DNA of 64,000 bases, taken from contig NZ_JAERSF010000001.1 of the NCBI RefSeq assembly GCF_016735615.1, positions 62,001 to 126,000 of the forward strand, read 5' to 3'. Below the pieces are notes generated by a model. That model saw only the letters and a program-made list of their open reading frames with translations. It was not told the origin of the DNA and ran no database searches. Source of the DNA: Flavobacterium tagetis. Lineage in GTDB: Bacteria; Bacteroidota; Bacteroidia; Flavobacteriales; Flavobacteriaceae. Every line of letters begins with the position of its first letter. Position 1 is the stretch's first letter. The position numbers and the translations under genes are program-made. This document shows positions 46,130 to 48,220 of this stretch, one piece after another.

Positions 46130-46159
46130 TTAAAATTGAGAACATTAATTCTTAGATAT

Positions 46160-46696
46160 ATGAAAACACTTAAGTTAATTCCGTTTTTGCTACTGCTGAT
46201 ACTTACTTCTTGCAGCACTGTGACCGTTTATTCTGATTATGACAAAACTGTCGATTTTACGCCTTATAAAACGTACGCCTATTTTAAGCCCGGAATTGAC
46301 AAGGTTGAAATATCAGATTTAGATAAAAGAAGAATTCTTCGTGCAATTGATGATCAAATGCAAGCTAAAGGATTTACGAAAAGTGAAAATCCTGACTTGC
46401 TAGTAAACATTTTTACTAAATCAAGAGAGCAAGTCGATGTAAACCAATTTACAGCTGGTTGGGGTTATGGCTGGGGCTGGGGTTGGAATCCTTACATGAT
46501 GTATGGAGGACAGACAACAGTTTCTACTTCTACTGAAGGAACTTTATACATTGATTTAATCGATGCTAAAAAGAAAGAAATGATTTGGCAAGGTGAAGGA
46601 GTTGGAACTTTGACAAGAAACATCGATAAAAAAGATGAAAAAATTGCTGAATTCGTTGCTAAAATTTTAGCACAATATCCGCCAGTAAAAAAATAA
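46160..46696 (+). CDS. DUF4136 lipoprotein
   Basis: A 178-residue lipoprotein starting at the ATG at 46160, chosen because it gives a signal peptide with lipobox LLLLILTSCSTV; an upstream TTG is less likely. The DUF4136 body has VYSDYDKTVDFTPYKTYAYF at the N-terminus and a Gly/Trp-rich segment (GWGYGWGWGWNPYMMYGG, about 110-127). Membrane-associated, function unknown. It follows hutU by 30 bp and ends just before the ilvA leader promoter. Confidence 0.82.
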   Translation: MKTLKLIPFLLLLILTSCSTVTVYSDYDKTVDFTPYKTYAYFKPGIDKVEISDLDKRRILRAIDDQMQAKGFTKSENPDLLVNIFTKSREQVDVNQFTAGWGYGWGWGWNPYMMYGGQTTVSTSTEGTLYIDLIDAKKKEMIWQGEGVGTLTRNIDKKDEKIAEFVAKILAQYPPVKK

Positions 46697-46700
46697 TTTT

Positions 46701-46708
46701 TACATTTG
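46701..46708 (+). promoter_or_regulatory. -7 box of the ilvA leader
   Basis: TACATTTG matches TAnnTTTG exactly, 21 bp before the leader peptide ATG. It lies just after the upstream gene stop, so the leader has its own promoter; a good -33 TTG was not seen. Confidence 0.6.
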
Positions 46709-46728
46709 CTGTTCAATCAACAAGAAAA

Positions 46729-46788
46729 ATGACAAACTTTAACAACATTATTATCGCTATTATTAGCATTATTGCAATTCAGCAATAA
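46729..46788 (+). CDS. Isoleucine-rich attenuator leader peptide
   Basis: A 19-codon open frame (MTNFNNIIIAIISIIAIQQ) with 8 isoleucine codons out of 19 and no leucine or valine. It begins 21 bp after a -7 box and is followed by a strong terminator hairpin 41 bp past its stop, then by ilvA. This is the arrangement of transcription-attenuation leaders, in which ribosome stalling at starved Ile codons would favour antitermination. See the findings for structure. Confidence 0.85.
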   Translation: MTNFNNIIIAIISIIAIQQ

Positions 46789-46828
46789 TGGCGAGGTGCT
46801 ATATAAGTTTGTAAAATATAATTTATAG

Positions 46829-46855
46829 AAACCTCCCAATTGGGAGGTTTTTTAT
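46829..46855 (+). terminator. Attenuator terminator upstream of ilvA
   Basis: A fully palindromic AAACCTCCCAATTGGGAGGTTT (46829-46850) followed by six T. A GCGAGGT segment at 46791-46797 can pair with ACCTCCC (46831-46837, six of seven) as an antiterminator, giving the two-state switch expected of an attenuator. Confidence 0.85.
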
Positions 46856-46876
46856 TTTAAGAATAATTAAAAAGTC

Positions 46877-46958
46877 GCCACGAATTACACAAATTAACAC
46901 GAATTACTTTTACGCCGCTTCTACATAAAGATTAGTGAAAATTTGTGCAATTCGTGGC
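46877..46958. repeat. Inverted repeat, GCCACGAATT family (copy 1)
   Basis: GCCACGAATTACACAAAT (46877-46894) with its inverted counterpart ATTTGTGCAATTCGTGGC (46941-46958, one mismatch). A related element is at 54741-54871. It lies in the ilvA 5' leader between the attenuator and the ATG at 46976. Confidence 0.75.
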
Positions 46959-46975
46959 AAAAAAAACAAAACACC

Positions 46976-48220
46976 ATGAGTTTATTTGAAGAAGTACTTA
47001 ATGCCCAAAAGCATCTCGAAAATGTAGTTGCTGCAACGCCTTTAACGCAAAATTTGAATCTTTCAGACGAATTTGAATCGACTATTTTATTAAAAAGAGA
47101 AGATTTACAAATTGTTCGTTCTTATAAAATTAGAGGCGCTTATAACAAGATTTCTTCGCTAAACGAAAAAGAAAAAGCAAACGGAACTGTATGCGCCAGT
47201 GCAGGGAATCATGCTCAAGGCGTTGCCTATTCCTGTAATCTTTTAAAGATCCATGGTAAAATTTACATGCCAAAAACCACTCCAAAACAAAAAGTAAAAC
47301 AAGTTCAGCTATTCGGAAAATCATTTGTTGAAATTGTTTTAACCGGAGATACTTTTGATGATGCTTATGCATCGGCAACTGCAGACGCCATAAAAAACCA
47401 CAAAACATTTATACATCCTTTTGATGATGAAAAAGTAATTGCTGGGCAAGGAACTGTAGGATTGGAAATCTTAGAAAGCTATAAAGAACCTATCGATTAT
47501 GTTTTTGTGCCAATTGGCGGCGGCGGACTAGCATCTGGCTTATCAGAGGTTTTTAAACATTTGAGTCCGCACACCAAAATAATCGGCGTTGAACCAAAAG
47601 GCGCTCCTTCAATGAAAACTTCAATTGAAGAAAACAAAAATACACCATTAAAAACAATCGATAAATTTGTTGATGGTGCAGCAGTTAAACAAGTTGGTGA
47701 CAAAACATTTGAAATCTGCCGTTATAATTTAGAAGATATTATTTTGGTTCCAGAAGGGAAAGTCTGCACAACCATTTTAAGGTTGTATAATGAAGAGGCT
47801 ATGGTTGTAGAACCTGCAGGAGCTTTAACAATTGCCGCTTTGGATTTTTATAAAGAAAAAATTAAAGGCAAAAATGTGGTTTGCATTGTAAGCGGAAGCA
47901 ATAATGACATTGAAAGAACTGCCGAAATAAAAGAGCGTTCCTTGCTTTACGAAGGCTTAATGCATTATTTTATGATTCAGTTCCCGCAACGTCCTGGAGC
48001 ATTAAAAGAATTTGTCAACAATATTTTAGGTCCTGATGACGACATCACTTATTTCCAATTTGCCAAGAAAAACAGTCGTGAAGTAGGTTCTGTTGTCGTT
48101 GGTTTAGAATTGAAAAACAAGAATGACATTATGCCAATTAAATTAAAAATGACCGAAAATGGTTTTGAGTTTCAATATCTGAATGACAATCAGGATTTGT
48201 TTACGCAATTAATTGGATAA
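46976..48220 (+). CDS. ilvA: Threonine dehydratase, biosynthetic
   Basis: A 414-residue enzyme starting at the ATG at 46976; an in-frame TTG 33 bp earlier lies in the repeat arm and is rejected. It converts threonine to 2-oxobutyrate, the first committed step of isoleucine synthesis. The PLP lysine is K51 in RSYKIRGAYNKI; CASAGNHAQGVAYSC binds substrate, and IGGGGLASGLSEVF binds the PLP phosphate. The C-terminal 85 residues are an ACT-like regulatory domain (FPQRPGALKEFVNNILG). It is preceded by an isoleucine-only attenuator leader and is not clustered with other ilv genes in the window. Confidence 0.95.
   Translation: MSLFEEVLNAQKHLENVVAATPLTQNLNLSDEFESTILLKREDLQIVRSYKIRGAYNKISSLNEKEKANGTVCASAGNHAQGVAYSCNLLKIHGKIYMPKTTPKQKVKQVQLFGKSFVEIVLTGDTFDDAYASATADAIKNHKTFIHPFDDEKVIAGQGTVGLEILESYKEPIDYVFVPIGGGGLASGLSEVFKHLSPHTKIIGVEPKGAPSMKTSIEENKNTPLKTIDKFVDGAAVKQVGDKTFEICRYNLEDIILVPEGKVCTTILRLYNEEAMVVEPAGALTIAALDFYKEKIKGKNVVCIVSGSNNDIERTAEIKERSLLYEGLMHYFMIQFPQRPGALKEFVNNILGPDDDITYFQFAKKNSREVGSVVVGLELKNKNDIMPIKLKMTENGFEFQYLNDNQDLFTQLIG

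Follow-up and report, generated by a model that had tools for sequence, protein, structure and literature searches.

A candidate isoleucine-specific leader-peptide attenuator upstream of ilvA in Flavobacterium

The region upstream of ilvA in the stretch of DNA analysed here (64,000 nt in full, hereafter the window) very probably acts as a ribosome-mediated, leader-peptide attenuator of transcription, through which ilvA would be tuned to the supply of isoleucine. From the sequence, it appears that ilvA, which encodes the first isoleucine-specific enzyme, would be made only when isoleucine runs short. An isoleucine-specific attenuator of ilvA had been proposed in a sequence-only reading of the window, and the proposal is now backed by conservation, by paired base changes, by a test of ribosome position and by the Ile plus Val content of ilvD leaders. 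The analysis shows the sequence, its conservation, the alternative folds and, in silico, their dependence on ribosome position.

The presumed target of this regulation is located at 46976-48220 on the plus strand and encodes a threonine ammonia-lyase of 414 aa, with scores above the cut-offs of both NF006390 (629.8 bits, cut-off 421) and TIGR02079 (616.6, cut-off 440.55). The gene stands alone; its upstream neighbour (46154-46696) is co-oriented with it, and the first large ORF beyond its 3′ end lies on the opposite strand. A second full-length ilvA was considered as a candidate in this genome and dropped, as no full-length IlvA match was found there besides the gene at 46976-48220.

All elements of the putative switch lie on the plus strand between the upstream gene and ilvA. 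A -7 promoter box, TACATTTG (46701-46708), matches TAnnTTTG, which the available text of PMC9723704 gives as the consensus for Bacteroidota sigma-A. It is followed by a leader ORF, MTNFNNIIIAIISIIAIQQ (46729-46788), that runs from the ATG at 46729 to the TAA at 46786-46788, with 8 Ile among its 19 residues and neither Leu nor Val. In the whole-leader fold the antiterminator arm is covered by a long 1:2 hairpin (46746-46798; 46746-46767 with 46782-46798), and the inner 11 pairs of this hairpin join Ile codons at 46754-46764 to 46784-46794, reaching into the arm. A short hairpin, ATTATTGC/GCAATAAT (46768-46789; 46768-46775 with 46782-46789), spans the last Ile codons and the stop codon, is an alternative to the long 1:2 hairpin and possibly serves as a pause hairpin. 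The antiterminator (46790-46837) is composed of 46790-46797 paired with 46831-46837 and of an inner helix, 46802-46809 with 46820-46827; its arm GCGAGGT (46791-46797) forms six of seven pairs with ACCTCCC of the terminator. Finally, sequence and folding identify an intrinsic terminator with a T-run (46828-46855), whose stem (46829-46850) has nine Watson-Crick pairs plus an outer G-U. Since 46831-46837 is common to the antiterminator and the terminator stem, the two folds are mutually exclusive. The box, the 19-codon ORF with 8 Ile, the short hairpin, the pairing of GCGAGGT with ACCTCCC and the terminator with its T-run had all been placed at these coordinates by the sequence-only reading. The short hairpin does lie over the Ile codons and the stop, as that reading had it, but it does not overlap the antiterminator arm, whereas the longer hairpin does.

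From this arrangement we infer where transcription starts, that the leader is translated, and how pausing, termination and the isoleucine response come about. RNA polymerase would start just past the -7 box, with a ribosome trailing it along the 19-codon leader ORF. When charged tRNA-Ile is ample, the ribosome would reach the stop codon at 46786-46788 and its front would cover the arm at 46790-46797; with the arm covered, the terminator at 46828-46855 would form and transcription would end before ilvA. Under isoleucine shortage, by contrast, one of the eight Ile codons, the last of which is at 46777-46779, would stall the ribosome. The stalled ribosome would break the 1:2 hairpin and leave the arm free to pair with ACCTCCC, so that no terminator would form and ilvA would be transcribed.

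Conservation of the element was assessed among relatives found in named genomes, using the best 80 of 148, all of which are Flavobacterium or labelled as close to it and are 90-100% identical. A leader and a terminator were present upstream of ilvA in 78 of the 79 readable loci in this set. The 78 comprise 77 detected by script and one (L032) in which the leader is present and which failed the strict terminator filter; one locus (L085), in which a contig end cuts the upstream stretch, was left out of the 79. The sole exception is L056, with no leader within 1 kb of ilvA. An apparent absence in L096 was rejected, as the leader there sits farther upstream, behind what appear by eye to be stacked dispersed repeats. 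The leader was also present in another Flavobacterium locus (L129), and it extends to IlvA relatives of greater divergence, with identities as low as about 81%. In F. johnsoniae strain CI04 (L047) the leader peptide is identical to that of the window. A repeat also lies in the window, where a dispersed inverted repeat with 28-nt arms that are 86% complementary (46877-46958, plus strand) separates the terminator from ilvA; it lies in the ilvA mRNA leader and probably outside the switch. Most of 46 matches in the genome fall in this repeat, which has many partial copies, and in L159 several copies appear by eye to be stacked ahead of ilvA.

The full set of ilvA leaders comprised 92 rows, or 82 distinct sequences, as some genomes occur twice; more divergent genomes are included. 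The 82 distinct ORFs are 16-20 codons long with 6-10 Ile. Val is absent from 72 of them and occurs once in the other 10; Leu is absent from 44 and occurs at least once in 38. The description 'Ile-only' in the sequence-only reading is thus exact for the leader in the window and does not extend to all of its relatives. The comparison of leaders across Flavobacteria that was suggested at that time found the Ile codons kept in all 82 sequences, and hairpins with paired base changes. A TAnnTTTG box occurred 16-22 nt 5′ of the leader ATG in 92/92 rows; as background, some 4% of the 60-nt stretches in the window contain one. Synonymous changes in the leader ORF numbered 54 against 34.5 expected (binomial P about 1e-4), a count in which near-neighbour pairs may share events. 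On the other side, 71 of the 125 single changes between near neighbours were non-synonymous, which counts against the attenuator.

The predicted hairpins were evaluated in 50 aligned leaders, of which 38 to 39 came from before ilvA and the rest were tandem first leaders, described below, or variants. In the short hairpin 95.0% of cells were paired and five of the eight pairs had changes on both sides, with GC to AU in 13 sequences and CG to UA in 18, these being counts of sequences and not of events. Covariation was 0.373 compared with 0.230 in shuffles (0/500), and the pair types showed no excess over shuffles (227/500 as high). The inner 11 pairs of the long 1:2 hairpin were paired in 84.4% of cells, with changes on both sides in 8 of the 11 and a covariation of 0.320 versus 0.276 when shuffled (0/500). 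The antiterminator folds at -14.3 kcal/mol (z -4.3) and was paired in 84.9% of cells; its covariation was weak (0.128 versus 0.112 shuffled, 4/500), and double changes occurred in 3 pairs compared with 3.3 in shuffles, or in 4 after a one-column slide. By eye, the antiterminator arm shifts in register (GAGGT, GGAGT, GGGAT, GGGGT) while its complementarity to the CCTCCC tract is kept, and because of this variation a count in fixed columns under-rates its conservation. The terminator was nearly fixed, with 96.2% of cells paired. For the leader RNA of the window as a whole, the fold had a z of -5.6 and none of 200 shuffles was equally stable.

Folding in the absence of a ribosome placed the arm in the upstream 1:2 hairpin at 0.91 when the RNA extended to 46815, and placed it there again in the full leader. 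For RNA ending at 46837, equilibrium instead favoured the antiterminator (0.82 versus 0.03 for the 1:2 hairpin), which implies that an untranslated leader would terminate only if the first-formed 1:2 hairpin persists. Segment 3 was paired at 0.5 or more without a ribosome in 61/82 ilvA leaders and in 2/12 tandem first leaders.

The attenuator should depend on where the ribosome stands, and this dependence was seen in silico. The front of the ribosome was set 10, 13 or 16 nt beyond the first base of the A-site codon and all RNA behind it was masked. The exposed RNA, ending with the first half of the terminator, was then folded, and the C/G positions of that half were scored for pairing with any exposed base. 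At offset 13, the first half of the terminator was paired upstream at a mean of 0.85 with the ribosome at Ile codons and at 0.04 with the ribosome at the stop codon. The difference was at least 0.3 in 93/94 distinct leaders at this offset, in 83/94 at offset 10 and in 94/94 at offset 16; shuffled-spacer controls reached it in 8% of 470 cases. The leader of the window alone gave 0.64-0.97 at Ile positions and 0.04 at the stop. Among tandem second leaders, 11, 10 and 10 of 11 passed at the three offsets, and 20% of 55 controls did so.

A different explanation is that the terminator merely ends transcription of the upstream gene and that the Ile-rich ORF arose by chance in AT-rich sequence. The upstream gene is indeed on the same strand, and among 37 loci from a genus search it is the closest neighbour recognised in 15, as it is in L129; AT-rich DNA also yields many ATT codons, and short Ile-rich ORFs, counted regardless of a terminator, number five in the window compared with 1.25 per simulated window. 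We nevertheless consider this explanation quite unlikely. When ORFs of 10-40 codons were required to be at least 35% Ile and to be followed by a terminator no more than 110 nt away, the ilvA leader was the only one in the window, and 40 first-order Markov windows had none. The promoter box separates the upstream gene from the ORF in all 92 rows, the spacer is tuned to ribosome position, and a related element precedes ilvD and an orphan ilvN-like gene, where the upstream neighbours are different. A chance ORF with an unrelated terminator was accordingly rejected on the simulated windows, the promoter box and the model matches elsewhere in the genome.

It is very improbable that the region is a riboswitch or T-box that senses isoleucine directly, by binding metabolite or tRNA, with the ORF incidental to it. 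A structured, conserved 5′ region ahead of a biosynthetic gene would suit such a device, yet an Rfam covariance-model scan of the window at gathering thresholds matched no family, T-box included, in the leader region, its four matches all being tRNAs. Furthermore, the conserved parts are the Ile codons, the stop-codon hairpin, the arm and the terminator, with no larger conserved core seen, and the related ilvD leader has Val codons too. Just as improbable is an ORF that works through coupled translation or through a function of its small peptide: the C-terminal IIAIQQ of the leader peptide is nearly constant in many relatives, but the hairpins account for this, ilvD and the orphan gene have different leader peptides, and the distance from leader start to ilvA (143-350 nt among relatives, about 680 nt in L159) makes coupling unlikely.

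The attenuator reading is extended by the leaders of other genes in the pathway. In this genome the ilvDBNC operon has its own leader, MMQISIIITSFVVVNVIHTSASGML, and terminator. In Flavobacteria with ilvA elsewhere, ilvD leaders carried at least three Val in 26/26 cases (mean 4.8 Val and 5.4 Ile), whereas ilvA leaders average 0.1 Val; the 26 genomes belong to 33 of the 69 with IlvA in the genus search. A further 18 ilvD leaders, from 17 loci of which one (L257) is a Flavobacterium, were mostly mixed (mean 2.8 Val and 5.6 Ile); one lacked Val, and some of the loci look tandem. The ilvD leaders were chosen by eye from ORFs, L239 being kept though no terminator was found there; of the 60 ilvD loci (L198-L257), 17 showed no clear leader within 500 nt and are excluded from the counts. 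In these sequences the codon content of the leader tracks gene content. The genus search also gave no IlvA match at E 1e-60 in 81 of 150 Flavobacterium genomes, a possible loss of isoleucine synthesis from threonine; the 20 of these 81 that were listed are 2.0-4.2 Mb in size.

A covariance model of the element had three clear sites in this genome, the next match being at E 0.19. Two of these, at ilvA (E 3e-17) and at the orphan ilvN-like gene (3e-15), were in its training set; the ilvD leader, found by model R1 at E 5e-5, was absent from it. A site at E 0.01 or better was present in 39/61 Flavobacterium genomes, the weakest being partly chance. Of 20 loci with model matches that we inspected (17 from other genomes and 3 from this one), three have ilvD leaders (L278, L279 and L292), one (L297) has the His-rich leader described below, and in 13 no leader was recognised. 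Tandem branched-chain leaders precede a branched-chain transaminase gene in L281, L283 and L293 (the family was checked for L281 and L283), which are Flavobacteria with ilvA in the operon. The tandem arrangement of attenuators may thus be old.

The orphan ilvN-like gene lies apart from the window (L014, 5155-5979, minus strand, G000:C6). It is preceded by two Ile-rich leaders in series, each with one terminator and with no Val or Leu. In 7 of the 37 genus loci (L164-L169 and L193), tandem leaders are followed by an ilvN-like gene of 142-174 aa and then by ilvA, in what is apparently one operon; the script recognised the second leader in five of the seven, and in L168 and L169 it was identified by eye. 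Among the remaining 30 loci, 14 have a single leader, one (L176) has a degenerate leader and 15 have ilvA in an operon, with ilvC recognised in 11 of the latter; in L184, L186, L187 and L190, ilvN and ilvA are separated by an ORF of some 348 aa. Val occurs in 5/12 first and 3/11 second tandem leaders of relatives.

For acetolactate synthase, this genome encodes a single large subunit that scores above the curated cut-off and two small subunits, and the orphan IlvN-like protein falls below curated cut-offs (61.2 versus 119; 47.9 versus 56.9). We compared small subunits at the positions of N11, G14 and N29 of E. coli IlvH, which we take to be the valine pocket. Canonical small subunits from the fetched loci kept N, G and N in 22/22 cases. 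All 13 orphan proteins differ at one or more of the positions, with N11 lost in 12, G14 in 7 and N29 in 9. According to the available text of PMC13158618, valine inhibition is affected most strongly by G14. The proteins of L103-L105, located in ilvB operons, kept N and G, one of them having S at the third position. In a tree, a long branch split canonical from other small subunits, the inner order being unsure because the branches are long. The differences at the valine-pocket positions suggest that the orphan is a valine-insensitive subunit, and we speculate that it would be made under isoleucine starvation. More broadly, and only tentatively, the sequences may describe a dedicated isoleucine-starvation circuit, in which the attenuator controls ilvA and the tandem pair controls a small subunit that makes acetolactate synthase valine-insensitive. 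With such a circuit, isoleucine could still be made through the shared pathway under conditions in which valine by itself would close it; in some genomes the tandem pair would drive the divergent small subunit together with ilvA, and tandem leaders would act as a sharper, lower-leak switch. The combination of tandem leaders with an altered ilvN-like subunit offers a testable idea for how valine-induced isoleucine starvation could be avoided.

The leaders of E. coli ilvGMEDA and ilvBN mix Ile, Val and Leu codons and drive shared steps. The Flavobacterium element shares with them a leader ORF rich in regulatory codons, predicted 1:2, 2:3 and 3:4 hairpins and a terminator before a biosynthetic gene, but among these amino acids its leader contains only Ile, and ilvA is the one gene that it precedes. 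Within the genus, leader-peptide attenuation upstream of amino-acid biosynthesis operons has been proposed for F. psychrophilum, the same mechanism in general terms (PMC9723704, available text); the sequence-only reading, which knew of no described Bacteroidota case, is refined on this point. The main text of PMC9723704 contains neither 'ilv' nor 'isoleucine', and overlap with its supplement is possible. In Listeria, the available text of PMC5864092 describes Rli60, before ilvD, as a ribosome-mediated attenuator with a 13-codon leader and mutational support. Rli60 likewise has a 2:3 antiterminator, a 3:4 terminator and a leader with branched-chain codons, but it belongs to another phylum and controls a branched-chain operon that responds to the branched-chain amino acids together (PMC5864092). 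The tandem leaders of the orphan gene resemble Salmonella mgtCBR in having two short ORFs in series ahead of one operon; mgtCBR senses two different signals according to the available text of PMC3641672, whereas the orphan has two Ile-rich leaders with separate terminators. The texts available to our literature search describe no Bacteroidota attenuator that controls ilvA or relies on Ile alone. Bacteroidetes may be covered in the comparative attenuation survey of Lopatovskaya et al. (2010).

The mechanism proposed here is classical; what the sequences suggest is that it has been tied to isoleucine alone, within a small set of related switches. The value of the system lies in this dedicated wiring to a single amino acid, in its conservation and in its tandem relatives. 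The series from Ile (ilvA) through Ile plus Val (ilvDBNC) to mixed leaders (ilvA in an operon) provides an evolutionary test of codons against gene content. Attenuation needs a ribosome close behind RNA polymerase, and a conserved, codon-tuned attenuator is thus indirect evidence of transcription-translation coupling. Such coupling would be indicated for Flavobacteria, which are bacteria without Shine-Dalgarno sequences according to the available text of PMC9723704. Finally, a His-rich leader, MISIQLHHHHLHYCSQAMC, with a terminator precedes hisG in the same genome as the window (L297, 85-144; G000:C2), the hisG product scoring over the cut-off of TIGR00070. This leader is likely a histidine attenuator, and its presence suggests that the attenuation mechanism is general here.
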